DNA from: a virus
Virus record (IMG/VR): IMGVR_UViG_3300020421_000160
Location: 1 to 21,881 of that record
Strand: one strand, 5' to 3'
Length of the DNA stretch: 21,881 nucleotides
In this document: piece after piece, positions 1-21,881 of the stretch
Layout of the letters: each line of letters starts with the position of its first letter
Position numbering within the stretch: position 1 is the first letter of the stretch
Translations under genes and position numbers: made by a program
The notes under the pieces: generated by a model
What the model was told of the DNA's origin: nothing
The model's input: the letters and a program-made list of their open reading frames with translations, nothing else
The model's database searches: none

Positions 1-1852
1 CGTTAGAACTTTCACAGTAAAATCTTATGTATGATTGAACACCACCATTCTTGATAGAAATTGCACCTTGCGATACATCAACACCAGTTGTACCACCTAT
101 CTGTGCAGTTGTAGCTAAAACTGCTCCTGTTACTGTAGCACCTGTTGATGTTGTTTCTAATTTCTTATTGTTATTATGATAAAGTTCTACAGCGCCATCT
201 TTTACTGCTGAAATCATTAATTCAGTGTTGTTGTTATCTCTGAATTTTAAATTATCACCTAAGATTTTAAATTCACCAGTTCTGTTTCTTATCTCAGAAT
301 TTCCACCAAAGTGTGCGATAGTCAAATCATCACTGGTACCAAATCTTGCTTCGTAGTTATCAGAAAATGATAGATTACCAAGATGAGCAGTACCAGTAGA
401 TGTAATTGTTTGTACGGCAACCCCACCAGCAGTTAATGTAATTGTATTAGTAGTAAATCCTACTTTAGTATCTGGATCACCTATATGTCGTATTTCGTTT
501 GGAATGAATACGTTTGTACCATCGAACTGAAAGTCTGACTCAGCATTTATTCCATTTCCACCAGTTGATGTAAGTATTCTATCGTTACTACCATTTGATA
601 CACTAGCTCCAGCATTTGCATCAACATAAGCTTTAATAGATTGTTGTGTAGCAAGTGCTGTAGCTGAGTTTGAACCCATAGCATCTTCGTCTAAAATATC
701 TGTAACTGTTACTGAACCAGTACCACTTAAACCATCAAACTCTACTGTACCTGTTACATTAATACCACCAGTTGTTGTTTCAAATTTTTGAGAACCATTA
801 TGCTGAAGAGTAACAGCACCTGCTGTTTCAAAAAATGCACTAGTTTTAGATTGATCAACGCTATTAACTCGTATATCAGTACCTGAAATTCGTAAGATAC
901 CTGTGTCGTTTTCTATTCTTGATTCACTACCAGTATGATAGATACTTAAATCTTGAGAAGCACCAAAGTTTAATCTATCATCTGTTGTACCACTACTGTC
1001 ACCAAAATTAATTAGTTGTGCATTTACATCTAGTGTTCCACCAAGTTGAGGTGTCGTGTCATTTACAAGTTCACTTTCACCTAAGTTCTGATATGAAGAA
1101 CCATCATTGGTAATCTGCCACTTGTCTGAAGTTTCGTTCCATCTCAACTCTACATTTGTACCTGTACCTCTTTCGACTTCGATACCAGCATTTTGTGAAG
1201 GTGTACCTGTCTCATCACTGTTCAGTGTGATAATATTGTCACCAATATTTAAAGTATTACTATTGACTACAGTTTGTGTACCTGATACTGTTAAGTTACC
1301 ACTAATGACTACATTTTTTCCTACGTTTAGATTTGATGCTAACGTAACATTGTCTGGTAAACCTATTGTGACTGTACCACCACTTTCTGCGACTGTAGTT
1401 TCGTTTGCAGTACCAGCAAAAGTTATTGTACCACCTAGTGCTGTTGCAGTATTGTTAGAACCATCTGAAACTGTAATAGTTGAATTAGTTAGTTTAGAGT
1501 TGGCGATAGAGCCTGCTAACATAGCATTATCAACTGCACCCGATGCAATTGTTAAAGCACCAGTATCACTTACTGTTGCATCACCTGATACGGCTGAGTA
1601 TATGTATTTTTTAACTCTTGTTAGTGTTGTTTTTCTATTTGTACCTCCAGCACCGTCATCAACAAGAAGTAAATCAGCGTCAACTAAATCGGCTCCTATA
1701 TCTGTACCACCATCAATGTCAACGCTTGTAATAGATATCGTTGCACCTGATAATGCTGAAGCTTGTAAAACTCCACTTGAATTAAAAACAATTGTGCTTG
1801 GTGTTCCTATAGCTAAACCATGTTTAGCTAAAAATTCTTTAGCTGAAGCCAT
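1..1852 (-). CDS. Tail fibre protein, 3' end beyond window (617 codons visible)
   Basis: The frame is open without a stop from ATG at 1852 to base 2; I checked every codon. An in-frame TAG at 1864-1862 just upstream fixes the start, preceded by an AGGGA ribosome site about six bases away. The protein begins MASAKEFLAKHG. Residues about 39-73 hold an Asp-rich block (DIGADLVDADLLLVDDG then NRKTT) that recurs in the 902-aa fibre. Residues about 177-204 hold the NLTVSGTQTVVNS block, related to blocks in the 902-aa and S74 fibres. Later segments contain DRLNFGASQDLSIYH and ARFGTSDDLTIAHFG, which look like two copies of one repeat. The visible end, SYIRFYCESSN, resembles a motif of marine phage fibres that usually lies near the C-terminus, so probably little is missing. 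Role: virion surface fibre, presumably host recognition. It has its own late promoter at 1893-1900. Confidence 0.85.
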   Translation of the reverse strand, partial: MASAKEFLAKHGLAIGTPSTIVFNSSGVLQASALSGATISITSVDIDGGTDIGADLVDADLLLVDDGAGGTNRKTTLTRVKKYIYSAVSGDATVSDTGALTIASGAVDNAMLAGSIANSKLTNSTITVSDGSNNTATALGGTITFAGTANETTVAESGGTVTIGLPDNVTLASNLNVGKNVVISGNLTVSGTQTVVNSNTLNIGDNIITLNSDETGTPSQNAGIEVERGTGTNVELRWNETSDKWQITNDGSSYQNLGESELVNDTTPQLGGTLDVNAQLINFGDSSGTTDDRLNFGASQDLSIYHTGSESRIENDTGILRISGTDIRVNSVDQSKTSAFFETAGAVTLQHNGSQKFETTTGGINVTGTVEFDGLSGTGSVTVTDILDEDAMGSNSATALATQQSIKAYVDANAGASVSNGSNDRILTSTGGNGINAESDFQFDGTNVFIPNEIRHIGDPDTKVGFTTNTITLTAGGVAVQTITSTGTAHLGNLSFSDNYEARFGTSDDLTIAHFGGNSEIRNRTGEFKILGDNLKFRDNNNTELMISAVKDGAVELYHNNNKKLETTSTGATVTGAVLATTAQIGGTTGVDVSQGAISIKNGGVQSYIRFYCESSN

Positions 1853-1877
1853 TAGAGTTCCCTATCCCGTCTAATAG

Positions 1878-1901
1878 TTATAAATGTCTTCTTATTTATA
1901 A
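1878..1901. repeat. 8-bp perfect inverted repeat overlapping the late promoter
   Basis: TTATAAAT at 1878-1885 is the exact reverse complement of ATTTATAA at 1894-1901, separated by 8 bases. The right arm overlaps the TATAAATA element almost completely. It is AT-only and not followed by a U-tract, so it is a poor intrinsic terminator. It could be chance in AT-rich spacer. Confidence 0.4.
1893..1900 (-). promoter_or_regulatory. T4-type late promoter TATAAATA
   Basis: An exact TATAAATA on the minus strand starts one base after the TAA (1904-1902) of the 1324-aa gene and lies about 40 bases before the ATG of the left-edge fibre gene. This is the consensus read by the T4 late sigma factor gp55 with the sliding clamp. 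Three other exact copies occupy gene junctions in this window. Confidence 0.85.
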
Positions 1902-4900
1902 TTATTTGAAACGTACTGGGGGAGTAAAATCTCTAGTATATAGTGCTGTATTTTTGATAATTCTTAGATTTGAAATATATCCGTCCATCCAAGATGAAGT
2001 GCCATCGTCACCTATTCTAAATGTAGTACCACTTATATTACCACTATATGAATAGTGATCAATTTCTCCACCGTCTTGAAATACTGTTAATTTGCCTTCT
2101 GAGTCATCATGAACGTAAGCCATGTGATACCATCTATTTGCTTCTGGTGTTATATTTGTATTATAGTAAGGACTTGCAATACCACCATTATGATATACTG
2201 TAAAAGCATTAGAGCCGTTTCTATAGTAAAAAGCTGGAGCATATCCATTAAAAGCACAATGTATTTGATTACCAGATGTGTTATTATGATATACCCAATA
2301 CTCTATAGTCCAATCATTAGTACCGATAGTATCTGCCAATGTACACTGTAAGAAATCACCACTACCATCAAACTTAACAGATTTCATACCAGGAGCAGGA
2401 GCAAAGTTTGAAACAACTGCATTACCGCTTACAGAAATTGAAGTACCATTAGAACTTCCGTCTGTTACTGTGGCAGAGCCTGCTGTACCAGCATGACAAG
2501 TTAAAAGTGTCACATTACTTGCAGTTGGGGTAGGTGTTGTACCATCAGGTTTTGTCATACCTGAATTAGTAGGTGTGAGAGTTACTGGATCTGCATAATA
2601 AGGATACACTGATTTTCCTTTTAATACTCTAAGATTTTCTAGATAACCATGAAAATGTCCAGAGTATCCTGGATATTTACCAATAAGAAATGCACCGGCG
2701 GCTTGAGTTTTACTATTAGCGTCTGTAATTGCCGATCCTTCTTGAACACCATCTACATACAATCTAACTTGTCCACTAACTCTACGAACAACAAAGTGTT
2801 TCCAAACATCTTGTATATTGCTTGTGCCTGATATTTTTAAACTACTACCATCATCTGCCGTGTAAACAAGTTTACCACCAGAAGAATGAATATACACTTG
2901 AATTGAATCTGTTCCGTTATCTCCGTAAGCAAATATTCTTCTATACTGACTGTCTGTGGATACTGATAATGCGTATACATAACCTTCAACAGTAAAGTCT
3001 TCTGTTCCTATTTTTAAAGTATCAGTGTCACCTGAAGGTTGAATATTTTGCGATAAGTAATCACCATTACCATCAAAGTAGATTGAAGGTTGATCAGCAA
3101 ATTTAGATTTTCCTAGTGAAGATGTTACATTTCCTTCCATCTCTAAACTTTGTTGTTGAGATGCATCTCCTACTAATACATCTCCCAGATTTAATAATAA
3201 TTTTGTATGAGAAGCATCAAAACTTGTATTGACATTAGTTGTTGATGGATATGTTCCACCTGTTTTTGTAAGTGGACGAGTTGGTGGAGTAAAAGCACCA
3301 GTATAGACAGCAGTACCTACAACTATTCTTAAATCTGAAAGAAATCCTTCAGCAGGCAGTTCACTTGTAACTGATCCTCCTCCAAATTCTATTTCACCGG
3401 CTGTTGTAGTTGTATAATCATATGTATCGGAAGCACTTCCTTTTTCAACACCATCACAATATATTTTCATAGTGCCACTATTTCGGACAATTGCAATATG
3501 TGTCCAAACTTTATCTCTAAGCACAGAAGTACTGGTTGTAAGTGAATTTGTAGATGATCGATACCACTTTAGATATCCGTTACTAGTATCTTTATACAAT
3601 CTCCAACCACCAGTAGTAGCATAGCGTTTACTTAGAATTGCTTCCCAAAAACTTGTAGCACCTTCAGGACGATACCAAAGTTCTATTGTAAAATTACCTG
3701 TTCCTAGTTGTATTTCATTTGTTGCTTTATCGGTTGTCTCTATATTTCCGGCGGCGTTGTTGTTTATATAAAATGATCCACCATGTTTATCTGGAGCATA
3801 AACTTCTCTATCATAAGGAATATATGGTACAGGGAACGGTGTTCCTCCAATAGTAAATCTAGGATCTAGAAAAGGATTATGAAATCCGTGAAAAATATTA
3901 AGTGATGCATGTGCTGTGCTTCTTGATCCAGGTACACTAATTGTTTCATTAGTAGAGGTATATAACTTAGCTTTAGTAAACTTTACATCATGTAAATAAC
4001 CTTCAAAATAATTTCCTAGAGAACCAAAATTTGAGCCATCAGCTTCTGTACCAAAAGCAAACGAATTATTATCAAAAGATATTCTATCTAATCCAGTTAC
4101 TCTAAATACTCTGTGTCCGTCTATCCAAAGAGTTACGATATCAGCATCAGAACTTCCATCTGTTTCATGCATAAAAACATAATGATGCCATTGATTTTGT
4201 TTTGTATAAATTCCACCATAATCAGATCCTATCTGAGTATTATCCCAGTTTGCTCTTCGAATACCGACAACAAAATCATTTAGCCCACCTGATAGATTGT
4301 TACAACCTATTATATGATCTGTATTAGAAGCTGGATCTGAAAATGAATATGCCCAAAACTCTAATGTAAAGTTATCACATTTTCCACCAGAATCATTAAT
4401 GTCAGCTAAAGTATCATCTCTTAGATAATCACCAGAGCCGTCAAAATACGTACTATAACCTCCTGAAGCATACGGACTAAATTGTGAAGTATGACTTTGG
4501 GCGGCAGTACCAAACATCTCTACAGTATGTGCTGAGTTTGAAGTATCTCTCACAAACTTGTTAGTATATAATGTACCAGCTGGTGCAAAAGGACTATCAG
4601 CGTCATAAGTTGGGCTACCAGAAGTTGTGAAACTACGATTATCTGCTGAATTATCTGTATCTGAACCTTGTGCGATTAAAAGGTTAGTGTTTGTAATTGC
4701 AGTGAGAGGTGCAGTCGGTGGTGTAAAAGCACTTGTATATACAGCAGTTCCTTTTACCATACGTAAATTACTAAGTCTACCATTCAAAGGACTTGTGCCA
4801 CCAGATGCCCGATCTCTTCCTATTGTTAACGAACCACGACTAAAATTATATGTAGTACTATAACTACCAACTTCTGTTCCATCAAGATACATTTTCAGAG

Positions 4901-5876
4901 TGCCACTATTTCTAACCCATGCAAGATGATACCATGTTCCTGCGGATAAAGAACCACTAGATGCTGTAGTGATACCTACTCCTGGTTGATAGACTGCCAT
5001 CTTATTTGGATTTCCATTTAAGAATAATGCAATTCTACCAGCCACAGATCCACTAGCTCCAGCTTGTGCAGTATCATAAATTAATTGATTAGCAGTAACG
5101 GCGGTTGGTTTAAACCAACATTCTACAGTAAAATCTCCTGATCCTGGAGCAAGATCATCATGAGTAGCGGATAGAGTATCGTAACTAGTAGTGTGTAATA
5201 AACTTTGTTGTTTTATAGTTGTGATTCCTGGTGGATTATTTGCTAACAAAGTAAGGGCTTCATATTTAGAATTTTTTAGTGAATATGCGGTGCTTATTGT
5301 TATGGTACCTGTTCCAGTATTGACACCATCAGTTACAGTTAATGTTACTGTAGCTCCTGCTAGTGGTGTTGTTCCATCAAATACCATTCTTAAATGATTG
5401 TTACTTGTAGTATGTGTTATGGCAACATTACCTGTGGTAGCAATACCTGAGTTAGCAAAAGTTACAGTAGTTGGTGTTCCTTCTGGCTCATTCACAGTAT
5501 AAGTGAAATCTAATGTAAGATTTTCGGTTGTAGGATCAGCCGATGTTGATGATAGAGTAATTGATGGTGAAGTATTCAGAGTAGAAATTTTATACCAACC
5601 AGAACCGTTCGATATATACAATGAGTTAGTCAATGTAGCATAAGCTAAAGTGCCTGAGGCAGATATAGGATTAATTGGAAATATTGAAGAGTTTGCATAC
5701 GTTGTTATTGCTGACGCTCCAACTATACCTGCTCCAGCTTCAATGATACTCGTATTTGATTGTGAATCTTGTATCTTTAGATTACCACTATCTGCACCCA
5801 TAACAACTCTAGAGGTGCCTGTGCCTAATGTCATCGTGTTTCCAGATGTCGATGTAAATGGAACTTTTTGTACCAT
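1902..5876 (-). CDS. Five-LamG-domain virion adhesin (concanavalin A-like lectin repeats)
   Basis: 1324 aa. Residues 1-200 form an N-terminal module starting MVQKVPF, with the segments SRVVMGADSGNLKIQDSQSN and SGWYKI and an Ig-like stretch (TLDFTYTVNEPEGTP) at about 105-198. The 417-aa neighbour carries a paralogous module. Five LamG/concanavalin-like domains follow at about 225-395, 475-650, 698-870, 930-1095 and 1165-1320. Each shows a strand of the type FTVECWFKP, FTLEFWAYS, FTIELWYRP, FTVEGYVYA or WTIEYWVYH, then W-H-aromatic and a YLDG/YVDG-like turn; three end in an NLR/DLR...VYT...FTPP signature. LamG folds commonly bind glycans, so a role in attachment to surface polysaccharide is inferred. 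The ATG at 5876 has an AAGGAA ribosome site eight bases upstream and its own late promoter. No signal peptide or membrane segment was seen. Confidence 0.88.
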   Translation of the reverse strand: MVQKVPFTSTSGNTMTLGTGTSRVVMGADSGNLKIQDSQSNTSIIEAGAGIVGASAITTYANSSIFPINPISASGTLAYATLTNSLYISNGSGWYKISTLNTSPSITLSSTSADPTTENLTLDFTYTVNEPEGTPTTVTFANSGIATTGNVAITHTTSNNHLRMVFDGTTPLAGATVTLTVTDGVNTGTGTITISTAYSLKNSKYEALTLLANNPPGITTIKQQSLLHTTSYDTLSATHDDLAPGSGDFTVECWFKPTAVTANQLIYDTAQAGASGSVAGRIALFLNGNPNKMAVYQPGVGITTASSGSLSAGTWYHLAWVRNSGTLKMYLDGTEVGSYSTTYNFSRGSLTIGRDRASGGTSPLNGRLSNLRMVKGTAVYTSAFTPPTAPLTAITNTNLLIAQGSDTDNSADNRSFTTSGSPTYDADSPFAPAGTLYTNKFVRDTSNSAHTVEMFGTAAQSHTSQFSPYASGGYSTYFDGSGDYLRDDTLADINDSGGKCDNFTLEFWAYSFSDPASNTDHIIGCNNLSGGLNDFVVGIRRANWDNTQIGSDYGGIYTKQNQWHHYVFMHETDGSSDADIVTLWIDGHRVFRVTGLDRISFDNNSFAFGTEADGSNFGSLGNYFEGYLHDVKFTKAKLYTSTNETISVPGSRSTAHASLNIFHGFHNPFLDPRFTIGGTPFPVPYIPYDREVYAPDKHGGSFYINNNAAGNIETTDKATNEIQLGTGNFTIELWYRPEGATSFWEAILSKRYATTGGWRLYKDTSNGYLKWYRSSTNSLTTSTSVLRDKVWTHIAIVRNSGTMKIYCDGVEKGSASDTYDYTTTTAGEIEFGGGSVTSELPAEGFLSDLRIVVGTAVYTGAFTPPTRPLTKTGGTYPSTTNVNTSFDASHTKLLLNLGDVLVGDASQQQSLEMEGNVTSSLGKSKFADQPSIYFDGNGDYLSQNIQPSGDTDTLKIGTEDFTVEGYVYALSVSTDSQYRRIFAYGDNGTDSIQVYIHSSGGKLVYTADDGSSLKISGTSNIQDVWKHFVVRRVSGQVRLYVDGVQEGSAITDANSKTQAAGAFLIGKYPGYSGHFHGYLENLRVLKGKSVYPYYADPVTLTPTNSGMTKPDGTTPTPTASNVTLLTCHAGTAGSATVTDGSSNGTSISVSGNAVVSNFAPAPGMKSVKFDGSGDFLQCTLADTIGTNDWTIEYWVYHNNTSGNQIHCAFNGYAPAFYYRNGSNAFTVYHNGGIASPYYNTNITPEANRWYHMAYVHDDSEGKLTVFQDGGEIDHYSYSGNISGTTFRIGDDGTSSWMDGYISNLRIIKNTALYTRDFTPPVRFK
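5755..5813 (-). repeat. Direct repeat copy 1 (N-terminal anchor of 1324-aa gene)
   Basis: These 59 bases match 7037-7095 at 57 of 59 positions by direct comparison. They encode the segment around VMGADSGNLKIQDSQSN at about residues 22-41 of the adhesin. A second conserved patch of the same two genes covers the Ig-like segment (about 5385-5520 against 6665-6802), including a run of about 25 near-identical bases. Confidence 0.9.
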
Positions 5877-5896
5877 ACTCTATATTCCTTTTTCTC

Positions 5897-5904
5897 TATT
5901 TATA
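5897..5904 (-). promoter_or_regulatory. T4-type late promoter TATAAATA
   Basis: An exact TATAAATA begins on the base right after the TAG (5907-5905) of the 417-aa gene and ends 20 bases before the ATG of the 1324-aa gene. An AAGGAA ribosome site lies between. Same family as the elements at 1893, 11920 and 17071. Confidence 0.88.
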
Positions 5905-7158: not shown

Positions 7159-7162
7159 GTCA

Positions 7163-7525
7163 CTATCTCGCTACGCCGATACGTGTTATCTTTAAGTTTA
7201 ATGTTCCAGTTGATGCCGGTGTTGCTCTGAGTCTCAGAGTTCTTGGCGGACCTATGTCTGAATCTGCCGTAAATGATACAAGATTAGTTGATTGTATATC
7301 ACCAAACTGTGTGAAGTCACAATCTGTAGCTGAAGTCATAGCAACCACAACTGTACAATAATGAAAGTCAGTGCCTTTTGTTGCCATAATATTAAACACT
7401 ACAGAACTTGTATCTACAGCTTGTACAGAGTCAACTGTTTGTATTGACGTACCTGTCGCTGTTGTTGATATCTGCGAATACTTGTCTGCTAAGTCTGCAA
7501 ATATTCTCGCTTTACTTTTTGCCAT
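7163..7525 (-). CDS. Small virion protein homologous to the C-terminal domain of the 519-aa fibre
   Basis: 120 aa, starting MAKSKARIFADLADKY. Residues about 30-120 read as the same beta-rich domain that ends the 519-aa protein. Both have a VVF-/SAQYLIQAT-type strand, a V(I/V)...F strand, then FG(D/R)(I/L)...N, a run with SD, and R(I/L)(K/R)V/A..QTTSTK- or ASTGTL-like strands closing LKIQATRL or LKITRIGV. Domains of this kind are common at the C-termini of marine phage fibres. The ATG at 7525 overlaps the TAA of the 519-aa gene by one base (TAATG), with an AAGGAAGAG ribosome site inside that gene, so the two are translationally coupled. It may be a head subunit or cap for the fibre, or a minor structural protein; the function is inferred. 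Confidence 0.75.
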   Translation of the reverse strand: MAKSKARIFADLADKYSQISTTATGTSIQTVDSVQAVDTSSVVFNIMATKGTDFHYCTVVVAMTSATDCDFTQFGDIQSTNLVSFTADSDIGPPRTLRLRATPASTGTLNLKITRIGVAR

Positions 7526-9084
7526 TAGTTGCTCTTCCTTAGTCTTGTAGCTTGAATTTTAAGTTTAGTACTAGTCGTTTGTGGTTGAACTTTAATTCTA
7601 ACTAAATTGTCAGCTACATCTGATGTAACTGTCATGATACTTCCGTTACTATTTAGTCTTCCAAATTCTGATATGAATGATGAACCTCTATCATGAATTA
7701 CGTTAAATGTTCCGAACGATACACCATTTGGATTTGTTGCTTGTATGAGATATTGTGCAGAGATAAAATCTGCGGTAGGAAATTGATCTACAACTGTTGC
7801 TGACGTATCATCAAAGGATAATATCTCTTTTGTTTTTAGAACTGTTGTATTTGCATAGTGAACTTCGTTTTGTGCAGATAGAACTGCTGGTTCTGGTCCA
7901 TGTGAGTCAATCGTAATAACATCGTTATTTGCTAATGGTTCTTGCAGAACAACTGTTGAACCACTTACGGCAGTCCAGTCAGTGCTTTCTTTTAGTTTGA
8001 TACCATTTAGATATACCGTAGTTTTGTTTACTTCATAATCTAGTCTTTTACCAAATCTATCTTGTCCAGAAAAAACAGTTGCTCCTTTTGATGCAACATA
8101 TTCGAATGATTTGTAAGGGTAAGGTCCTAAAGACTCTATCATCACAACATCATTATTACCAGCACCATCTTGAAGAACAACTTCTGTTCCGTTTGTTGCT
8201 ACAACATCTGTATTTGCTCGTAATCTAACACCATTTAAATATACTTTTACACCACCACCTAGAGGATTATTTGCTGTGTATGCTAGTGTTTCACCAAGGG
8301 CATCTGCTCCAGAGAATGTAGTTTGTCCTCGAGTCGCTACATATGTAAAATGTTTAAATTCTTCAGAACCATATTGTTCGATAGTTATGATGTTGTTGTT
8401 AGATGTTCCGTCTTGAAGTGTTAGTGTACCTGAATCTGTTTCTGCAAAGTCAACAGTAGGACGTAATTTAACACCATCTTTATATACAGAGACTGAGCCA
8501 GGAGTATAGCTTAAAAGTCCTTGACTATCTGAAGAACCTTTAAATAATGTTTGTCCTGTATTAGATGTAAATTCAAATTGCTGAACTGCTAAAGAAGCAC
8601 GAACTGAAACATTAGCAGTATGTCTTGAAGTACCTTGATAGGCGGCGTCACCAGTAAACGTAACAGGTCCAGTAAAGTTAAATGCAGAAGTAGATGTAAC
8701 TGGTTGATTAAAAGTAACTGCTTGTTGAAATACTGCATTACTTGAGAATACTGTATTACCAGTAAAAGTTGAGTTGTTAAAACTACCAGTTGCTGAGGCG
8801 GCGGCGAATGATAATGTACCACTACCATCTGTTTGTAGAAAATGTCCGGCTGAGCCGTCAGTACTTGGAAATGTAATATTACCATTGGCTATCTGAAAGC
8901 CACCGGTACCTACTGTGACATTATGTGGATTTGAACCTATTTCTAGAATTGCTGAAGAGGAAGGATTTTTTGTATAGAGTCTTTTGTCGGCTGTATTGAC
9001 AGCAAGTTCGCCTGCATCTAGTTCAGATGTTGTTGGTTTCTTACCAGCAACATTACTACGTTTAATACGTATTACGTTAGCCAT
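7525..9084 (-). CDS. Tail fibre protein with three internal 75-residue repeats
   Basis: 519 aa. The N-terminus MANVIRIKRS..AG..P..SELDAGELAVN..D.RLYTK matches that of the 902-aa fibre and is probably a shared attachment domain. Residues about 60-160 are a low-complexity beta shaft (SFNNSTFTGNTVFSSN, then TSAFNFTGPVTFTGD). Three repeats follow at about 168-240, 245-320 and 325-397, each with F.(Y/S)..(T/S).GQT.F.G.D, an L.Y sequence, a VY.(N/D)G(V/I)(K/R)L turn, T.L.LQ and NN(D/I)(V/I)(I/M).I. Residues about 415-519 form a beta-rich C-terminal domain shared with the 120-aa gene. There is no late promoter in front; the sigma70-type promoter at 9139-9167 is the only one I see. The ribosome site is weak (AGG about 12 bases upstream), and an 8-codon out-of-frame ORF (ATG at 9103) overlaps the start codon. 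Confidence 0.86.
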   Translation of the reverse strand: MANVIRIKRSNVAGKKPTTSELDAGELAVNTADKRLYTKNPSSSAILEIGSNPHNVTVGTGGFQIANGNITFPSTDGSAGHFLQTDGSGTLSFAAASATGSFNNSTFTGNTVFSSNAVFQQAVTFNQPVTSTSAFNFTGPVTFTGDAAYQGTSRHTANVSVRASLAVQQFEFTSNTGQTLFKGSSDSQGLLSYTPGSVSVYKDGVKLRPTVDFAETDSGTLTLQDGTSNNNIITIEQYGSEEFKHFTYVATRGQTTFSGADALGETLAYTANNPLGGGVKVYLNGVRLRANTDVVATNGTEVVLQDGAGNNDVVMIESLGPYPYKSFEYVASKGATVFSGQDRFGKRLDYEVNKTTVYLNGIKLKESTDWTAVSGSTVVLQEPLANNDVITIDSHGPEPAVLSAQNEVHYANTTVLKTKEILSFDDTSATVVDQFPTADFISAQYLIQATNPNGVSFGTFNVIHDRGSSFISEFGRLNSNGSIMTVTSDVADNLVRIKVQPQTTSTKLKIQATRLRKSN

Positions 9085-9105
9085 ATCTATGGTACCTATT
9101 CATTA

Positions 9106-9119
9106 ACCCTATGTAGGGT
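9106..9119. other. Leader hairpin before the 519-aa gene
   Basis: ACCCTA and TAGGGT flank two bases; realistically this is a 5-bp stem with a 4-base loop. It sits in the transcribed leader between the sigma70-type promoter and the start codon, about 20 bases before the ATG. It could affect translation. With no T-tract after it on the minus strand it is not a convincing terminator in that direction. Confidence 0.45.
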
Positions 9120-9133
9120 AGATATATTTTTAC

Positions 9134-9153
9134 AATCTATTATATAATAGATT
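9134..9153. repeat. 20-bp perfect palindrome over the -10 box
   Basis: AATCTATTAT followed by its exact reverse complement ATAATAGATT, with no spacer. It covers the TATAAT box completely. The position is what one would expect of an operator for a dimeric repressor, though no regulator gene is in the window and an AT-only palindrome can occur by chance. Confidence 0.6.
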
Positions 9154-9167
9154 TAGCCGTCTGTCAA
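9139..9167 (-). promoter_or_regulatory. Perfect-consensus sigma70-type promoter
   Basis: On the minus strand TTGACA (9167-9162) is followed, after exactly 17 bases, by TATAAT (9144-9139): all 12 consensus bases and the ideal spacing. It lies in the 86-bp gap between the TAA of the 902-aa gene (9173-9171) and the ATG of the 519-aa gene (9084). The predicted start of transcription is near 9132, giving a leader of about 48 bases. This is the class of promoter read by the host housekeeping sigma factor, usually early in T4-like infection, and it is unexpected in front of a tail fibre gene. Confidence 0.75.
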
Positions 9168-9170
9168 CTA

Positions 9171-11879: not shown

Positions 11880-11919
11880 GCTTCAAACTCCTTACTTATG
11901 TAATGTTTATCTGTTTGAT

Positions 11920-11927
11920 TATTTATA
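11920..11927 (-). promoter_or_regulatory. T4-type late promoter TATAAATA
   Basis: An exact TATAAATA seven bases after the TAA (11937-11935) of the coiled-coil gene, about 40 bases before the ATG of the 902-aa fibre. An AAGGAG ribosome site lies between. Confidence 0.87.
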
Positions 11928-11934
11928 ATAATTA

Positions 11935-12567: not shown

Positions 12568-12569
12568 AA

Positions 12570-13421
12570 TTAACTACCTGTATAACTACTCCCATCTAGA
12601 GTTGTAAATGTAGGTGTACCATTGGCGGCTATTTGAAATACTGTGCCTGATGCACCTGGGGCTACAAAATCAATTCTCTTGTTAAATGATCTACCTATGA
12701 GTACACCATTATTAACATGATTACCTAATCGCAATTCATTTATAGTAGCTGTTTTATTTATGATGACATTGGCAGACTGAACTGTACTGTTAGCACCACT
12801 CATTTCGACTGAAACTGTTGATGATGTATTTGCCATAGAAATGGTGTTTGCTTGTACTGTCTTAGCACCTACTGTTGTAAAACTATTAGCAGACGCAATA
12901 CCTTTTGCTCCGATATATCTAGCACCTTCAATGAATATAACTTTACCACTTACAGAAGATGGTACATTTGATCCTATAAAATGTAAAGTTCCAGCTTCAT
13001 AGTCAAAGAACCATTCATCATCGTCACCAGAACCAGTAGGAAATAATTGAGTACCACTTGATGGTGCGTTTGCTGTGCCTGATGCCGCCGTATAAACTTT
13101 AACAAGATATGTAGAACCAAACTGTGTAGGTATCCAATCTGTTTCGCCTGTCTTCCAAGTTCTGTTTGCTGACGCAGTATTATCATTTGTAGTTTCTATA
13201 GCACCTGTACCAGTATAAACTCTTACATGTGTAGATGTTGATGCCGGTATTGTAGAAGGTATCAAGTCTGCTTGAGCCCATATGATATCACCTCTCATCA
13301 ACAAAGGTGAGTCTATCGCCTCGTTAGGCGCTTTCTTTAAAGAGTTTGTGTCAGTCTTAGCTTTACCATAACCAAGCTTTTTCCACAAATAATCTACTTT
13401 CTGAGAATCAGATATTGCCAT
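12570..13421 (-). CDS. T4-like marine phage virion structural protein (283 aa)
   Basis: The N-terminus MAISDSQKVDYLWKKLGYG.AKTDTN..KKAPNEAI.SPLL.RGD.IWAQ is a form I recognise from virion structural proteins conserved in T4-like cyanophages. Further signatures are TWKTGETDWIPTQFGSTYLV (about 88-107), DDEWFFDYEAGTLHFIG (about 134-150) and VIFIEGARYIGAKG (about 161-174). Residues about 180-283 switch to fibre-like, Asn/Ser/Thr-rich sequence ending in FTTLDGSSYTGS. The exact virion location is not known to me. ATG at 13421 overlaps the TAA of the 1091-aa gene by one base (TAATG), with a strong AGGAG inside that gene, which indicates coupled translation. Confidence 0.85.
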   Translation of the reverse strand: MAISDSQKVDYLWKKLGYGKAKTDTNSLKKAPNEAIDSPLLMRGDIIWAQADLIPSTIPASTSTHVRVYTGTGAIETTNDNTASANRTWKTGETDWIPTQFGSTYLVKVYTAASGTANAPSSGTQLFPTGSGDDDEWFFDYEAGTLHFIGSNVPSSVSGKVIFIEGARYIGAKGIASANSFTTVGAKTVQANTISMANTSSTVSVEMSGANSTVQSANVIINKTATINELRLGNHVNNGVLIGRSFNKRIDFVAPGASGTVFQIAANGTPTFTTLDGSSYTGS

Positions 13422-16400
13422 TAACTCGGTACTCCTATTGATAGTGCTGTCAGACTATCATCACTATTTAGAACGATAGAAATTAATATCTGATTGTTAA
13501 ATGAGTTAGATGAAGATACTGTACCAAGAGTCATTGTAAAAGTTTGATTACTATAGTTTGTACCATCTACAATTCTGTCTGAGCCTGTTTCTGCAATACC
13601 ATTACTTCCGTTACCACCACTACCTGTATTTCCTCCAGGAACACCAGAACCTGCATATTGTATCGATGCATCACCCCAACCATTTATACTTGATGCTGTA
13701 TCCATTGCTGTGTTCGGAACAGCTACAAAAAGTCCTGATACTTTACCAGTAAGAGTGATTGTGAAACGTGAAACAGTAGTTCTCTTAAATGCAAAAACAA
13801 AATGTTGGGCACCAGATCGTCCTGTATTTAAATCAGGTCCAGCTGGTAAAAAACCACTTGACAAATCAGTTGTAAAGTGCTTTAGTGTGTCATATCGCAC
13901 TATCGCTTCAGATGTGCCTGCTACTGTTTGGGCACCTGTAAAAGCGTTATCTGCAAAGTAATCAGTAGAATTACTAAATGTTACTGCACCACCAGTCAAA
14001 CTATGAATACGTTTGGCATCTGTGTTGAAACCAGCACCTAATGAGTCTGATACAGGTATTGCTGTTTCATCAAATGATTTACTACCATTATATGCTTGTA
14101 TTGCAGGTGATGCTAATATGGCGGCACTACCAGTTCCGTTTGAGTTCTTTGCTCTTACTTGTAATCTCTCTACACGTTTACCACCACCATTTACATTTAC
14201 TGTAAGATTGCCTAGAGCATAAGGTGATCCTGTTCCTATATTGACTTTTGGTGTACCACTATCTAACATAGTTGTGCTACCATCTATGTTTGCATATGTA
14301 AAGTTATTTGTTCCTATTGCATTACCTGATGTACCCTCTAAGTCAGTAGAGTTTTCTACTACTACAGGTGATGTTGTGTTCTGAAAAGTTTGTCCTGTAA
14401 AACTTTGTACAGTTACACCTGCTAGTGTAAGTGTTGCATTATTTGTATAGTAAGGTATACCTGATATATGAGTTAACGTACCAGCTGACGCTTGTGTAAG
14501 TGTTGCAGAGCCTACACTTGTTGTAGGTGTTATCGTTACATCATCTCTAATAAACTTCAATGTGTTAGTATTACCAGCAGTTGATTGTAATTGTAGAGAA
14601 TGTAAGCCTGTTGAGAAGTTACTCTTTGATACTCTAGCTTTGTAACCTTCAAATAATCCTGGTGCATATATTCTATTATTCACTGCAACAGTATTACCAT
14701 TTGCATCAAAGCTATTATAATCTTGCTCATCATCAATGATGAGACTTGTAAATGTTCCTTCATCATTTGCATTGGTAATAGCTTTCTGTCCGTCTGCACT
14801 ACCATCTACAAATGCAGTAACTGTACCACCATCTGCTTGAAAGAAGAATGAGCCCATGGCGGCTGTTGCGATTGCACCCGATGTAGTATAGCGAGTTACG
14901 TTATCACCAGCGTTTGTACCTGAAATACCATTCGTTGTAAAACCTGAAGCAACTCTAGGATTCGTACCTGTAGAAGATGTATTCAGTGATATTGTTTTTG
15001 TGCCTAGATTATTAGGTGAGGCAATCGATGCATCAAAGACTTTTATCAGTGCTGTAGCAGTCAGAGGTAGAACCGCAGGATTACCACCACTATACGTATT
15101 GGCGGCTAACGTAATTGTATGTCTTCCTGTACCTGATGCATTTGTGTATGTGTGTGCTAATCTACCACCTTGAGGTCCACCATTTGCTGTCTTACCAGCT
15201 ATACCTTCTATAGAAGTACCATCTCCCCAATTGACAGAGAAAGTTGCTGTGATAGCAGTGTTTGGTATATTTGTTGTTGTATTATTTAAATGTACTGGTG
15301 TACCAGTTACGGCAGTTGTGACTACACTACCACCTGATGATGCGTCATGAATTGTAAATGAGGGAACTGGATCAGCTAAGAATATTGTTATAAAATTAGA
15401 ACGTGTTAGTGATGCAGAAGAACCTGAACCTGTACCTCCAGTATTCTTTGCAGTTACTACAACTGTAAAAGGTGAACCAGAGTTTGTTGCATATGTATGA
15501 CTTGGTGTTGTATCTGTCACATTATTATCTGTAGAGCCGTCACCCCAATTAATATCAAATGCATTTGCATTTCCTGTTACAGTCAATGTAAGAGTAACAA
15601 CTGTGCCAGCACCACCTGCTGTAGTATCAGCAGAAAAAGTCACATCTCGCACGTATGTGTTTTTAAATATATTGAGAGTTGTTTCATTTAGATTATCTAA
15701 TGCTTCAACCACATTATCATCTGAAGCGAAACCAACGGCGGCACCATCATTTAAATTATTAAATTGAGAACCCAATGTTTGTCCATCTGCTGTTGTACTA
15801 AAACCTGCTATCTGAGTATCTACATACGCTTTACTGGCGGCATCTGTATTCTCCGTTGGTAATGCTAAACCTTTTACACTTGTTGTAAACACATTTGCAT
15901 ATTTCTGTGCAGGCGCACCTATATTAAATACATTTGTAGTTGTCGGTATAATACTATTATTAACTGATGCACCTAGATTTACAACATCACCACCATCACC
16001 AAGATTGATTGTGCTACCTCTAAGTATGATAGCACCATTCACAGTAAGATTATTTCTTATTGATATATTGTTTGCATGAAGATGTGTATTACTTGCTTGA
16101 ATAACACCAGACTTTACAGTCATACCTTGATTGAAAAAGGCTCTTGGTGTTTCTACAGTAAATGTAGTATTTGCTACAAGATTTGCTGATTCAAAATTAT
16201 CTGTGTTTAGAGTTTGTGTACTAAGAGTACCAATGACAACATTCTGAATAACACCATCAATGACAGTATCTTTAGTGATAGTAATTGTATCACCTGCATC
16301 AGACAGGTTTAAATTACCTAGCTTGATTGTTTCACCAGATAAGAATAGAGTTCTAAATCTTCTACCAGGAGAACCTAAGTCATAAGCATTGTTTGTGTCA

Positions 16401-16696: not shown

Positions 16697-16698
16697 TT

Positions 16699-17049
16699 CT
16701 ATGTACCTTCGTTACTACGTGTTACCTGCGGTGTTACTGTGACTATGCCTTCTACTAATCTTGAGCGTGTGTTTGCACTATCTGTTACCTCTACATCATA
16801 TACATATCTTCCTGAAGCTAAGTTAGCTGTCTGTATTCTAGACAACTTCATTGTTAATTGTCCACTTTCTCTAGGCGACTCAAATACTATCTGCATATTA
16901 TGAGCAGTAGTTGAAGTAAAATGTTTTCTTATTTGTCCGTGTCCGGTGTAGTTTGTAAGATTTACAGCAACACCACTATTGTCTCTAACAGTTATTGTTG
17001 TTGCGAAATCTGTACCTTGATCCACGACTATGTTAGCTTTAGCACCCAT
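16699..17049 (-). CDS. Small virion structural protein, Ig-like fold (116 aa)
   Basis: The sequence IVVDQGTDFATTITVRDNSG, then NLTNYTGHGQIRKHF, a QLTMKLS strand, ASGRYVYDVEVTD and RLVEGIVTVTPQVTR matches a small family I know from T4-like marine phage structural clusters. The order of strands and the (G/D)RYVYD(V/I)E motif suggest an Ig-like, baseplate-upper-protein-like fold. ATG at 17049 has AAAGGTG at good spacing and is the first gene after the late promoter at 17071-17078. It leads the four-gene block 116-1091-283-210 aa, whose members overlap or lie within two bases of each other. Confidence 0.85.
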   Translation of the reverse strand: MGAKANIVVDQGTDFATTITVRDNSGVAVNLTNYTGHGQIRKHFTSTTAHNMQIVFESPRESGQLTMKLSRIQTANLASGRYVYDVEVTDSANTRSRLVEGIVTVTPQVTRSNEGT

Positions 17050-17070
17050 CTTAACACCTTTGTTTTGTAC

Positions 17071-17078
17071 TATTTATA
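17071..17078 (-). promoter_or_regulatory. T4-type late promoter TATAAATA
   Basis: An exact TATAAATA nine bases after the TAG (17090-17088) of the 300-aa gene and 21 bases before the ATG of the 116-aa gene. It is the presumed driver of the four-gene structural block down to 11935. Confidence 0.88.
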
Positions 17079-17087
17079 ATATGAGTA

Positions 17088-17990
17088 CTATAAGTAATCT
17101 GCTATATTCTCTTCTCTCCAAGCAAAATAACCATCTGGTTCAGTTATTTTTCTGTATACAAAATATGATAATTCAAATCCTGCTCTTTCTTTTCTAAATT
17201 GTGTAGCAGTTTCTTTCGCTTTATCTATACCATCTACTGCAAAAGAATCACCATTATAATTCGTAACCATAAAAGTATCTTCATCATCAGCGTCTTTCAT
17301 ACTTTTATTCATTATAACACCACCATATTGATCAAAGTCAACAGGTTCTACGTCTTGAGAAATTAATGGATCTCCTAGCCATTCTTCAATCAATTCTGCA
17401 ATTCTAGCTTTTACTTCTTCTACAGTTTTATTTTCTAAATCTTCTCTTTTACCTAGTTCTCCATAACCACCTACAGTTATGTACCAATCATTTGTTTCAG
17501 TATAATTGTTCCAAAATGTCACAGCTTTTAGAGGTGCTGGTTTTGTTTTATCAAGAATCCATTCAAGATAATCATAAGGCTTTACATATTTACCATCAAC
17601 AAATCCATCACCTTCTGTGATAACAGTTTCCATACCTTGTTTAACTTGTGTTACAAAAGAACTTGGTAAGTTTTTAACTTTATCTATTTCTTCTTCAGTC
17701 CAACCTTCATTTTTCATACGTTCATAGATACTATCAAAATCAGGATAAACTTTATCAAATTCAGGTATGATATCTGTGCCTATACATCTCCATGCCCACA
17801 AATACAAAGACATTTCTACAGTCTCTTTGTAAGCATCTCCATACTTATTGTATAATCTATTTACACCAAGAGCAGTACCTGCTTCAATTAATTCTTTTGT
17901 ATTTTGATTTGCTGTTCTTTGTCCTTCTTCTTTGTCGGGATCACAACCTTGCATATTTAATAAATTTGAAATATCATTATTCATATACAT
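17088..17990 (-). CDS. Acidic hypothetical protein, 300 aa
   Basis: I do not recognise a family. It is soluble-looking, acidic and mixed alpha/beta, rich in Trp and Tyr, with no signal peptide, clear membrane span or metal-binding Cys/His cluster. Visible segments: MSLYLWAWRCIGTDIIPEFD, GWTEEEIDKVKNLP, YVKPYDYLEWILDK, NDWYITVGGYGELGKREDLE, AELIEEWLGDP and YFVYRKITEPDGYFAWREE. Its composition is unlike the Thr/Ser/Gly fibres around it. The first ATG (17990) is chosen because TAGGAG lies seven bases upstream; the TAG there is also the stop codon of the glycine-rich gene, so the two are coupled. A second ATG two codons later fits the ribosome site less well. The position right after a fibre/adhesin pair suggests a late role such as fibre assembly or a host-interaction protein, but this is speculation. 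Confidence 0.75.
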   Translation of the reverse strand: MYMNNDISNLLNMQGCDPDKEEGQRTANQNTKELIEAGTALGVNRLYNKYGDAYKETVEMSLYLWAWRCIGTDIIPEFDKVYPDFDSIYERMKNEGWTEEEIDKVKNLPSSFVTQVKQGMETVITEGDGFVDGKYVKPYDYLEWILDKTKPAPLKAVTFWNNYTETNDWYITVGGYGELGKREDLENKTVEEVKARIAELIEEWLGDPLISQDVEPVDFDQYGGVIMNKSMKDADDEDTFMVTNYNGDSFAVDGIDKAKETATQFRKERAGFELSYFVYRKITEPDGYFAWREENIADYL

Positions 17991-18000
17991 TACGAAACTC

Positions 18001-19098
18001 CTATCCTGCTATCGATCCATGAAATCTTCTATTATTATGTGAGATACTTCTTCCGTTTCGATGTACGGCTCTACCACCGCCACCACCATTACCTCCTCCG
18101 GCACCTCCACCAGAAGCACCCCAACCACCGCCTCCTCCACCTTCGGCAGTTCCAGCTCCACCACCTCCACCAGTAGCACGTCCTCCAGAGCCTCCAGGAT
18201 TTGCAAAACCAGGATTACTACCGCCAGAGCCTCCATTACCAGGATATTGTCTACCACCTCCACCACCGGAGCCTGCTGTTGAAGTACTAGTATTACCACC
18301 TTTGTTTACATCTCGGCCCCAGCCGCCTCCTCCTCCACCAGCTGTACCACCACGTCCTCTAACAGCACTACCTTCAGCACTTCCTGCTTGTGAGTTTCTT
18401 ATACCACCATCGGCACCTTTACCTCCTGCACTGTTACTACCAGCTCCACCATTAGTGTTAGCGTGATTAGCGGCGGCACGTCCTCCGTTACCACCTCCAG
18501 CACCTCCACCTCCACCAGCGGCGGCTCTGCCTCCAGTATCATCTCTGTATCTACCTGAACCTCCTCCACCTCCACCGGCAGAACAAGTTCCATTACTAAG
18601 ATTATTCCATCGTGTTATATTTGTTTGAAGAAGAAGAGCATGTCCTCCACCTGCACCATTTCCACCAGAAGCGTGTCCTCCTCTTCCACCTTTACCCATA
18701 ATGAAAGCGTAATTATCTACTTTTACTTCACTAGGAAAAGAACCTGTTCTCATTCCATAATTATTTGTTGCAGTTCCTATATGATATCCAGAATTGAGTG
18801 TTATACGAACTGGATTAGTTCCATCATAACCGTGAGAGTCTGCTAAGGATCTAAGATTTGAATTTGTACGATTACCACCACTAATAGTTACTTCTCTGTA
18901 ATCTAAGGCACCATGAAAGTCGCTTAGTGATATTTGTCCTGAATTAGGAATACTTCCTCCTACAAGATCTTCATTAATGATAGATCCGTTTCTGTAGTAT
19001 TCACTAAATTTTATTCCTGCACCTCCTGTTCCACCTGTAGGTGAAAACTCATCTTGTACATTTTTGATTGATATTGTGCCTGAACCTGGAAGTGCCAT
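18001..19098 (-). CDS. Glycine-rich adhesin-like tail fibre tip protein
   Basis: 365 aa. Residues 1-65 carry a pair of SG.IS motifs (MALPGSGTISIKNVQDEF, then NSGQISLSDFHGA), an N-terminal pattern common in marine phage virion proteins. Residues about 66-135 are beta-rich. Residues about 136-342 are dominated by glycine runs (G4-G6) broken by W, R, A and N, such as GGGGGGSGRYR, GGGGGGWGRD and GGGGGAGGGNGG. The end is RSISHNNRRFHGSIAG. Known parallel: gp38 adhesins of T-even-like phages place glycine-rich motifs that form a polyglycine-II core, with variable receptor loops between them. Here the ATG follows the TAA of a long fibre gene with no gap, with an AAAGG site inside it, as genes 37 and 38 are arranged. 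The gp38-like role is inferred; sequence homology is not shown. Confidence 0.75.
   Translation of the reverse strand: MALPGSGTISIKNVQDEFSPTGGTGGAGIKFSEYYRNGSIINEDLVGGSIPNSGQISLSDFHGALDYREVTISGGNRTNSNLRSLADSHGYDGTNPVRITLNSGYHIGTATNNYGMRTGSFPSEVKVDNYAFIMGKGGRGGHASGGNGAGGGHALLLQTNITRWNNLSNGTCSAGGGGGGSGRYRDDTGGRAAAGGGGGAGGGNGGRAAANHANTNGGAGSNSAGGKGADGGIRNSQAGSAEGSAVRGRGGTAGGGGGGWGRDVNKGGNTSTSTAGSGGGGGRQYPGNGGSGGSNPGFANPGGSGGRATGGGGGAGTAEGGGGGGWGASGGGAGGGNGGGGGRAVHRNGRSISHNNRRFHGSIAG
18073..18693 (-). repeat. Low-complexity poly-glycine coding tract
   Basis: This tract encodes about 207 residues (136-342) of the adhesin, built of GGT/GGA-rich runs seen on the plus strand as repeated CCTCCACC-like units. 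The local base skew (C-rich top strand) and GC content stand out from the AT-rich surroundings. Shadow open frames in this tract on both strands are by-products of the repeats. Confidence 0.8.
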
Positions 19099-21881
19099 TT
19101 ATTTACCTTTCAGTTCTTCTACCTCTTTCTTCAGTTCTTTTACAGCTTCAATGAGAACTGCACAAAGCTTACCATAATCTACAGACTTTGTTTGCATTTC
19201 ATCATTTGCTGTAAGAACTATTTGAGGTAGTATTTCTTCTACTTCTTGTGCGATAACACCTATTTTTTCTTTACCAGTCTCTTTGTGTGTATAATTTACA
19301 CCACGTAGATTGTCTACTTTATCTAATGCATTTTCTATAGTTGATACATTTTCTTTTAATCTAGCATCTGAGAAAGCTGTGACATCATTATTAAATGTGG
19401 CGGCACCAGCTTCCGACATATCAAGAGTAAGAGCGTTGAAGAAAGTTCCTCCGTCATTACCTTGAAAGAATATGTCTTCATCTTGTACTATTGATCTTAT
19501 TACTAAATCACTATCTGTTACGTTACGGAAAAATCTAGCATATTCAGTACCACCATCTGATAGTTTCACAATACCACTATCACTATCTAAATCTATATCT
19601 CCAACAACATCTACTGTAAGATTACCAGAACCAACTGCTAAAACATTACCATCTAGTGCTATGTTATCTATTGTCAAAGCACCCATAGTGTAAGACGCAG
19701 TGTTATCTATGGCGGCGTTACCCACAGCGTTTGCAGTTATCTTGTTTGTTGTTACAGCACCAGTAGCTAGTTTATCAGAAGTTACAGCACCATCTACTAT
19801 TTTTATAGTACTTACTGAATCTGTTTTTAATTTATTGACTGAGATTTGAGCGTTACCAATATCACCTTCAGCTACTAAGATACCTCCTGAAGGAAATCTT
19901 AGTTCACCAAAAACACTTGCATCAGCTCCAGTTAAACTTGCGATTGAACCTGCATTAGGATCTCCACTTGATGGAGAACCATCAGTACTCCATCTCAAGT
20001 CTATGTTTACTCCACTATGCCATTGTGTAGCAGTACTTGCTTTACCATGAAATGTATTTTCGCCAGCACCTGAGCCTGTCTTTGTTATGATATTTTGGTT
20101 ATCTGTATTCTTAAATACATCACCAAGAAAGTTTGTTCCTGCGGATACTACTTGTGAAGTCAAAGTTCCTGTAGAAGGTTTATATTTTAAATTAGAATCT
20201 TCTTTTATATCTTGTACATTTGGTGTTGAAGTACTAGAAACAAATGTTAAGAATTGATCGGCAGTAGATGTGCCATCAGAAACTGTTTTTACTTTTACAT
20301 CGATATTACCTGTACCATCAAATGATGCACCACCTATATTTCTTGCTGTTGCTAAAGCTGTTGCAGTGGCGGCGTTACCTGATGTGTCTTGATTACCTGT
20401 TGCGTTAACACCAGGAAGATTGATGTTTGCACTACCATTGAAACTTACACCACCTATAGTTCTTGCAGTCTCAAGTGTAGTAGCAGTATCTGCATTACCC
20501 GTTACATCACCAGTTAAACCAGCGTTAAAGTTTTGAATAGTCGCACCATTAAAGTTAACAGTGCCTGTAAATGCACTTGTACCAGATGATGAAATATTTC
20601 CTGTTACATTACCAGCAACATCACCAGTTAAATTACCAGTAACATTACCTTCTACACTTGCTACAAGAGTACCAGCAGTTCCTGATATTACTGATGAAGT
20701 ATCTGTAGCATCTGGTATCATTAAGAATTTACCTGTACTATCATCATAACCCATGAAGGCTTTCTTTGCACCTGAGTTATTGTACTTCATGATGATACCA
20801 CGATCTAGATTATCATCTGAACTAGATTCACCAAGTTCAAATATTGGATCTGCTATCGACACTGTTGTTGAATTGACTGTGGTTGTTGTACCAGAGACTG
20901 TTAAATCGCCTGTGATAGCTACATCTCTTGTAACTGTTAAGTCTCTACCAATTGTCACATCTTGTGGTAATCCTACTGTTACTGTACCGTTGTTACGAGC
21001 TACATCTACTTCATTTGAAGTACCAGCTACTGATAGTACAGCACCTGTTGAAGCATTTTTAAGTGTTACAGCACCTGAACTTACAGCAAAATCTCCAGCA
21101 TCGAATGATGCGACACCTCGTACACTATCTGTTGCTGGTGCAACTACTAAATCATGTGTTTTACCATCACCTGTGCTAACTCTTACATTATTGTTCGCAC
21201 TTGTGTAAGCAACGCTTGAGATACCAGCTACAGCTACTTGAGAGGCGGCTGTTACACGTCCTTTAGCATTTACTGTCAAGACTGGAACTTGTGTTGCAGA
21301 ACCATAAGTTGTTGCAGTAAGTCCTGAGATTGTAGCCATCTCATTTGTTCCGATAGAACCAGCACCTACTGTAGCGGCAAATGTAGAACCATCTGCTGTC
21401 GTAATTGTAAATGTTTTTCCACTAGTACCGTTACCAACTGCGAAACCTGTAACACCAGCGACTGTGGCTGTCGTGGCGGCAGTTATTTGTCCTTTATTAT
21501 TAAATGTAATAACTGGTACGGCTGATGCTGAACCTACACTAGCACCCGAAACAGTTGAGACTAACATATCAGATGTTATAACACCATTACCAATTGTTCC
21601 TGATGCATTCAATTCACCATTTGTATCGAATAAAACCGTACCACCATCTCTTGTTATAGCACCATCAAAGTCAACATTACCAGCAAAGTTTGATGTACCA
21701 GATATTGCTAGAGAACCACCAGATATTTCTCCTGTTACGCCTGCATCTCCACCTACACTTAAAGCATCAGTTACAGCTAAATCATCTTTTATGTCTATGT
21801 CATTTACATGTAGTTTTTCCCATGGCGCACTTGAACTTCCTAATTCTCTTGTACCTTGTGGAATAATATTTGACTTTACAA
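19099..21881 (-). CDS. Long tail fibre with C-terminal S74 self-cleaving chaperone domain, 5' end beyond window
   Basis: 926 residues visible. The frame is open to the right edge, so the TTG at 21612 is internal, not the start. Fibre signatures: IIPQGTRELGSSSAPWEKLHV near the visible start; two copies of a (S/Y)GSA..VPV(I/L)T.N.KG(Q/R)(I/V)TAA repeat at about 114-136 and 191-213; GDLTVSGTTTTVNSTT at about 325-339; two copies of GNA.TAT.L.TAR.IGG.SF.G..NI at about 461-526. The last 90 residues are a peptidase S74 / intramolecular chaperone domain: SDARLKENV (Ser837, Lys842), IGVIAQEVEEILPQ, VDYGKLCAVLIEAVKELKKEVEELKGK. In characterised members such as endosialidase and T5 fibre tails, a Ser-Lys pair five residues apart drives autocleavage after trimer folding; that spacing is kept here. 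The TAA abuts the ATG of the glycine-rich adhesin. Confidence 0.9.
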   Translation of the reverse strand, partial: VKSNIIPQGTRELGSSSAPWEKLHVNDIDIKDDLAVTDALSVGGDAGVTGEISGGSLAISGTSNFAGNVDFDGAITRDGGTVLFDTNGELNASGTIGNGVITSDMLVSTVSGASVGSASAVPVITFNNKGQITAATTATVAGVTGFAVGNGTSGKTFTITTADGSTFAATVGAGSIGTNEMATISGLTATTYGSATQVPVLTVNAKGRVTAASQVAVAGISSVAYTSANNNVRVSTGDGKTHDLVVAPATDSVRGVASFDAGDFAVSSGAVTLKNASTGAVLSVAGTSNEVDVARNNGTVTVGLPQDVTIGRDLTVTRDVAITGDLTVSGTTTTVNSTTVSIADPIFELGESSSDDNLDRGIIMKYNNSGAKKAFMGYDDSTGKFLMIPDATDTSSVISGTAGTLVASVEGNVTGNLTGDVAGNVTGNISSSGTSAFTGTVNFNGATIQNFNAGLTGDVTGNADTATTLETARTIGGVSFNGSANINLPGVNATGNQDTSGNAATATALATARNIGGASFDGTGNIDVKVKTVSDGTSTADQFLTFVSSTSTPNVQDIKEDSNLKYKPSTGTLTSQVVSAGTNFLGDVFKNTDNQNIITKTGSGAGENTFHGKASTATQWHSGVNIDLRWSTDGSPSSGDPNAGSIASLTGADASVFGELRFPSGGILVAEGDIGNAQISVNKLKTDSVSTIKIVDGAVTSDKLATGAVTTNKITANAVGNAAIDNTASYTMGALTIDNIALDGNVLAVGSGNLTVDVVGDIDLDSDSGIVKLSDGGTEYARFFRNVTDSDLVIRSIVQDEDIFFQGNDGGTFFNALTLDMSEAGAATFNNDVTAFSDARLKENVSTIENALDKVDNLRGVNYTHKETGKEKIGVIAQEVEEILPQIVLTANDEMQTKSVDYGKLCAVLIEAVKELKKEVEELKGK

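Follow-up and report, generated by a model that had tools for sequence, protein, structure and literature searches.

Avoidance of GCWGC and about a dozen other sites in a T4-like marine phage clade, with surviving copies largely in one flanking context

The pentamer GCWGC, nearly missing from the viral DNA described here, is one of about a dozen sites that are avoided together, most of them classic type II restriction sites. Where an avoided site has an outer G:C pair, its surviving copies are found almost only with a G before and a C after the site (G-site-C); this regularity is new here, lay beyond the reach of an earlier note on this DNA, and is the most informative part of the pattern. The best explanation of the whole, which we hold to be probable, is that type II restriction purged GCWGC and the other sites, protective modification of the site boundary being its more weakly inferred part.

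The window analyzed, 21,881 bases long, spans all of an IMG/VR virus fragment (IMGVR_UViG_3300020421_000160), of which 13 accepted genes, all on the minus strand, cover 98.7%. Judged by its predicted products, which match tail-fibre, fibre-assembly, and lectin-like families, it comes from the tail-fibre block in the genome of a tailed, T4-like marine phage. These products include a protein with repeated Laminin-G/concanavalin-like lectin domains (1902..5876), a tail-fibre-like protein (phrog_38058; 9171..11879) whose gene contains the window's sole GCWGC, a member of the phrog_9417 family (12570..13421) that served as the query for relatives and the basis of the tree, an L-shaped tail-fibre assembly family protein (phrog_3304; 16699..17049), and a long tail-fibre/baseplate-wedge family protein (19099..21879; many PHROGs tail families) whose gene starts beyond the record. 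A 300-residue protein without a family match (17088..17990) has relatives in only three other contigs. The short, tail-fibre-like product of 18001..19098 is Gly-rich, very much so in its C-terminal half, and is similar to tail-fibre/host-specificity families (phrog_11439, phrog_2056; a weak match to the PHROGs category 'tail fiber protein; host specificity'); it is possibly the receptor-binding tip. The closest relatives of the window are short contigs and one contig of 146,609 bases (IMGVR_UViG_3300020420_000008, here G002), whose major capsid protein has 67% identity with its counterpart in Pelagibacter phage Mosig and 63% with the one in HTVC008M, two T4-like phages. A nucleotide search of the window against phage records gave a single 75-base match. 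Genes on the contigs were called as mechanical open reading frames.

An exact count in the window yields one GCAGC (10921..10925), no GCTGC, 8 GCCGC, and 24 GCGGC, hence one GCWGC against 32 GCSGC, which bears out the single GCWGC and roughly 30 GCCGC/GCGGC that the earlier note had counted by eye. This one copy lies far under both composition- and codon-preserving expectations: 30 for a maximal Markov model, 26.5 (z −11) for a synonymous-codon shuffle, and 24.3 ± 3.0 for a stricter shuffle that keeps the protein, the codon usage, and the base after each codon, the Markov and codon nulls differing by up to ∼20% in what they expect. The Ala codons of the window are GCA (274), GCT (228), GCC (85), and GCG (35), and 21 of the 32 Ala-Ala pairs are GCC-GCC, where 0.6 would be expected; the rest are GCG-GCA, GCG-GCG, and GCC-GCT (3 each), GCG-GCT (1), and GCT-GCC (1). 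The last is the window's only GCWGC (coding strand TTG GCT GCC TAT, Leu-Ala-Ala-Tyr; context GGCAGCC, the exempt form described below). That Ala-Ala pairs are written around the pentamer with GCT-GCC as sole exception was thus read correctly, as were the positions given as examples: plus-strand GCGGC at 12625..12629 (coding-strand GCCGC, an Ala-Ala pair), 14121..14125, 19400..19404, and 21476..21480, and a minus-strand GCG-GCG-GC run of Ala codons without GCWGC at 10405..10412 (plus-strand GCCGC at 10405 and 10408).

Two other elements of that reading did not hold. GCSGC is not free of constraint, for in the window and G002 152 of 157 GCCGC have C as the next base and GCCGCD is avoided (5 vs ∼38 expected). 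Because GCCGCA and GCCGCT are avoided as well, Ala-Ala is written GCC-GCC and not GCC-GCA or GCC-GCT; where the preceding codon ends in G, GCC-GCC would give rise to GGCC, so the exempt form GCW-GCC is used there, and residual GCWGC is an in-frame Ala-Ala following a codon that ends in G in 10 of 11 instances in G002 and in the one instance in the window. Nor is GCWGC the lone avoided word, as GACC/GGTC (6 vs 48) and GGATG/CATCC (2 vs 15) are also scarce in the window.

The avoidance of GCWGC is genome-wide. G002 contains 11 copies against 109.7 expected (protein, codon usage, and junction base kept), and a more distant 132-kb relative from a separate lineage, G008, contains none against 127.4 expected, with zero in each of the three frames; IMG/VR contigs may carry assembly errors, but genome-wide zeros could not come from these. 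Within the window, in-frame Ala-Ala pairs account for 23.3 of the 24.3 GCWGC expected, as they would if the translation machinery disfavored Ala-Ala written GCW-GCN. The pentamer is nevertheless lost out of frame too (0 vs 23.3 in frames 1 and 2 of G008; 1 vs 12.2 in G002), GGTCD is lost on both strands and in every frame, and GCW-GCN is used without restraint in related phages that carry the same genes, so a translational or codon-pair effect is highly improbable. Avoidance thus operates at the level of DNA, and the three nulls and the frame counts together rule out composition, Markov, and codon-pair explanations. Loss by mutation, with the methylated C of GCWGC deaminating to T, can hardly be credited: m5C-forming methylases of GCWGC are known (PMC8936443), but in the window and G002 GTAGC/GCTAC stand at expectation (299/309) and GTTGC/GCAAC are merely slightly raised (396/325), G008 behaves alike, the replacements are synonymous GCC or GCG, and the loss is complete.

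The trait is also lineage-specific. Among ∼80 related loci, which were picked by protein relatedness and not randomly, roughly 20 avoid GCWGC and the remainder are near expectation, and a tree of 79 homologues requires at least four changes of avoidance state, well-supported branches forcing at least two of these. Since avoidance varies among relatives that have the same genes, a protein-lineage effect is ruled out. Mosig (EXVC030M) and HTVC008M, both from Pelagibacter, and Melnitz (Methylophilales; Kyanoviridae) have a related T4-like backbone and a purged GATC, yet, unlike the window and G002, do not avoid GCWGC. Mosig and HTVC008M carry it at a normal level while other sites are purged, namely GATC, ACGT, and CGCG in Mosig and GATC and TCGA in HTVC008M. 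A pattern that is genome-wide and lineage-specific, with other sites purged in cultured relatives, would not be expected if the cause lay in the proteins or in their translation.

The sites purged in the window and G002 are, besides GCWGC, GGTCD, GCCGCD, WGCGCW, GGCC, CGCG, GAATTC, CTGCAG, AGATCT, AACGTT, and CTTAAG, and likewise GCATGC, GTGCAC (mostly), and GGATG. GGTCD occurs once against 346 expected and GGCC outside GGNCC not at all against 70; CGCG, GAATTC, CTGCAG, AACGTT, and CTTAAG are all absent, and AGATCT occurs once. Many of the residual GGATG are preceded by T, TGG-ATG encoding Trp-Met, for which there are no synonymous codons. GGCC, CGCG, GAATTC, CTGCAG, AGATCT, AACGTT, CTTAAG, and GTGCAC are known type II sites. 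The exceptions, GGTCD and GCCGCD, are to our knowledge not textbook type II sites and count against a restriction reading.

Target-specific restriction remains the best explanation, on support that is good yet circumstantial, since the depletion extends through the genome of a relative, holds in every frame, is confined to certain lineages, does not come from mutation, and belongs to a group of sites that are mostly type II. Bacteria encountered by this T4-like marine phage would select against GCWGC through type II restriction, with synonymous codons (GCC-GCC, GCG-GCN) substituted where the pentamer was lost. Most of the purged words are known type II sites, some palindromic and some asymmetric, and for this reason the agents are probably host-encoded type II restriction-modification systems, that for GCWGC presumably being an enzyme of BbvI/TseI-type specificity. 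The earlier proposal of restriction acting on GCWGC therefore stands as the best explanation, while a single pentamer and a single enzyme are too narrow a frame for about a dozen sites purged together. The breadth of the purge indicates that the clade has encountered a wide restriction repertoire among ocean bacteria.

BbvI, TseI, and ApeKI have GCAGC or GCWGC specificity, and their recognition site is exactly the avoided pentamer, although this nominal specificity would not predict the tolerated GGCWGCC and no such enzyme was found among the related phages and host candidates. TseI recognizes GCWGC (PMC6329791), and methylation of GCWGC occurs both in an aquatic and in a phage-linked setting, exemplified by the m4C methyltransferase M.AbaBS3I (GCWGC) from a lake Chloroflexi (PMC6329791) and the m5C methyltransferase M.BatI (GCDGC) from Bacillus prophage-like regions (PMC8936443), albeit in hosts different from those of the phages here. 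Non-temperate phages habitually avoid orthodox type II sites (Rusinov et al., 2018; PMC6286503), and the present case is similar in its strong depletion of such sites below composition and codon nulls in a virulent-type phage. It differs in that about a dozen sites, the non-textbook GGTCD and GCCGCD included, are avoided in one clade, and in the strict context rule for survivors, flanks or overlap being unmentioned in the text of that paper.

A search for GCWGC-specific methyltransferases or nucleases in the related phages and host candidates found none. PF00145 is present in 0 of 33 related phage records and PF01555 in 4 of 33, none of which is a strong GCWGC avoider; by these two families, the strongly avoiding phages show no C5 or N4/N6 methylase of a known Pfam type that could serve in self-protection. 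G002 does encode a 176-residue DNA-methyltransferase-like protein (P0001; G002:125368-125898, equivalent to L098:5368-5898; phrog_799) with FYPTP and NPPW motifs, along with a SegE-like GIY-YIG nuclease, and Melnitz has an annotated HhaI-type methylase; these would be in keeping with an agent encoded by the phage, either its own GCWGC-specific nuclease for destroying host DNA or a methylase, to which the genome has adapted. We regard this as very unlikely, as Mosig, HTVC008M, Melnitz, G008, and another phage contig (G010) showed no P0001 gene, PF00145 is missing from all 33 records, and a dozen purged sites would demand a dozen enzymes. P0001 is closest to proteins of alphaproteobacterial phages such as Roseobacter phage CRP-6, and the NPPW motif is commoner in adenine methylases; as a shield enzyme it is unsupported, being not common to Mosig or HTVC008M. 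Restriction of modified DNA is a further alternative, in which C not followed by C would be methylated in the phage and the methylated GCNGC and GCGC then cut by enzymes of the BisI/GlaI type. GCNGC and GCGC sites whose next base is not C would fit, and BisI-family enzymes target modified GCNGC (PMC4926085, PMC11347163), but GGTCD, GAATTC, CTGCAG, and other purged sites are left unexplained and the phage records show no m5C methylase of the PF00145 family, which makes this very unlikely.

On the host side, a pstS gene on G002 has 64% identity with genes from low-GC (∼37%) Alphaproteobacteria single cells, which hints at the host without establishing it. GCWGC depletion is absent from DNA of the candidate host lineage (314/345). 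PF00145 occurs in 2 of 15 genomes with a pstS relative. In one single cell of the pstS-donor lineage (locus L242, G045:C8:32911-36400), two adjacent m5C methylases are followed by a 266-residue open reading frame that is GIY-YIG-like by eye and matches no Pfam family; the three may form a type II restriction-modification locus.

The copies of avoided sites that survive follow a strict context. All 12 residual GCWGC in the window (1) and G002 (11) are GGCWGCC, a form expected for ∼1.5%, and one further copy in each of two related loci (L081 and L135) fits the same rule. In coding DNA of the window and G002, 56 of 57 GGTC are GGTCC, which is itself at chance level (62 expected), while the one copy with A, G, or T next stands against ∼347 expected. 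The six GGTC/GACC in the window are all GGTCC (7249..7252 on the minus strand; 7895..7898, 8123..8126, 8666..8669, 13836..13839, and 15174..15177 on the plus strand), with GGTCD/HGACC at 0 vs 42 expected. The window's sole GGCC (18315..18318) lies in GGCCC, and every residual GGCC in the window and G002 is GGCCC or GGGCC. GCGC in G002 has at least one such flank in 54 of 54 cases, and GTGCAC is flanked on both sides in 6 of 6. Other GCWGC-avoiding lineages have at least one flank at 99 of 103 residual sites, against 21% in non-avoiding phages. A G-site-C exemption also shows at GATC in the cultured pelagiphages, where 19 of 19 copies in Mosig are GGATCC and 83 of 83 in HTVC008M are GGATC or GATCC, so that the predicted flank is found at every surviving GATC. 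P-values for the flank rule assume independent sites and are indicative only. Nearly every marine phage tested, including some without clear avoidance, shows the GCGC bias, and GCGC is therefore weaker support than GCWGC, GGTC, and GATC; it may have a separate cause. GAATTC and GAGCTC are very rare in the G-site-C context.

Two readings of the flank rule are about equally probable. Several pelagic T4-like phages could carry, or obtain from their hosts, a modification at CC/GG steps that hides sites, only the unhidden copies having been purged; we offer this tentatively. The boundary G:C pair, that is, the first C of CC or the second G of GG, would bear the mark, G-site-C copies would escape cutting through their modified outermost pair, and whether one flank or both are needed would depend on each enzyme's response to a half-modified site. 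Within one phage, the survivors of unrelated sites do cluster in G-site-C, one mark would cover six of these, and sites without a terminal C are predicted to be non-exempt, as observed. A single universal mark is at odds with the absence of GGTCC from clade B (G003, L005; 0 vs 12 expected), perhaps due to an additional GGWCC enzyme, with GGCC in HTVC008M, which departs from the rule, and with the lack of a common methylase gene.

The rule could instead be intrinsic to the enzymes, G or C outside the site making for poor cutting without any modification, and the avoidance would still be due to restriction; this, too, may be so, though we hesitate to favor it. It would accommodate a flank number that varies by site and lineage (both flanks for GATC in Mosig, one in HTVC008M), the little exemption shown by the purged GATC of Melnitz, the different flank pattern of GGCC in HTVC008M, and the near-universal GCGC bias. 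It is less readily squared with the same exempt base at six or more unrelated sites in one phage (GCWGC, GCCGC, GGTC, GCGC, GGCC, GTGCAC), with the failure of the reversed flank (C before, G after) to exempt, and with the lack of exempt copies in phage K, A511, and DLP6, which have other hosts and served as controls. Methylation of GGNCC alone was considered and set aside; it covers GGTCC and GGCCC/GGGCC and fails for GGCWGCC, GCCGCC, GCGCC, GGTGCACC, and GGATCC.

Should the flank rule stem from modification, the copies of purged sites that are tolerated would tell how the DNA of uncultured phages is modified. A genome sequence alone would then record an epigenetic shield combined with site avoidance, and it would show where the mark lies: on a boundary C with another C after it, on one strand or on both according to the enzyme. 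Should the enzymes themselves produce the rule, restriction in the ocean would still select on more than the nominal site.

Site repertoires also differ within the clade. GGCC is avoided and GGWCC tolerated in sub-clade A (the window, G002, L081), GGCC is tolerated and GGWCC absent in sub-clade B (L005, L007, G003 = L100, L101), and GGTCD is absent and GGCC free in L135, which suggests a recent shift in the host restriction repertoire. In Mosig (L129, L236, L237), ACGT (0 vs 188 expected) and CGCG (0 vs 45) have no exempt context. A further contig, L152 (IMGVR_UViG_3300035670_000286), tolerates ACGT mainly with an outward A/T flank (2/22 without a flank, 39/28 with one) and GTAC with an outward G/C flank (0/42 without, 26/20 with one); the former is an outward-form exemption at a site that does not end in C, for which a CC mark would not account. 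AGCT and AGCC are depleted jointly, as if RGCY were avoided, in G010 (L109-L116; AGCT 44/389 and AGCC 73/325, observed/expected), S-SM2 (L132), and AG-345-F15 (L133), and CTAG is absent from 50 kb of S-SM2, where 75 copies would be expected.
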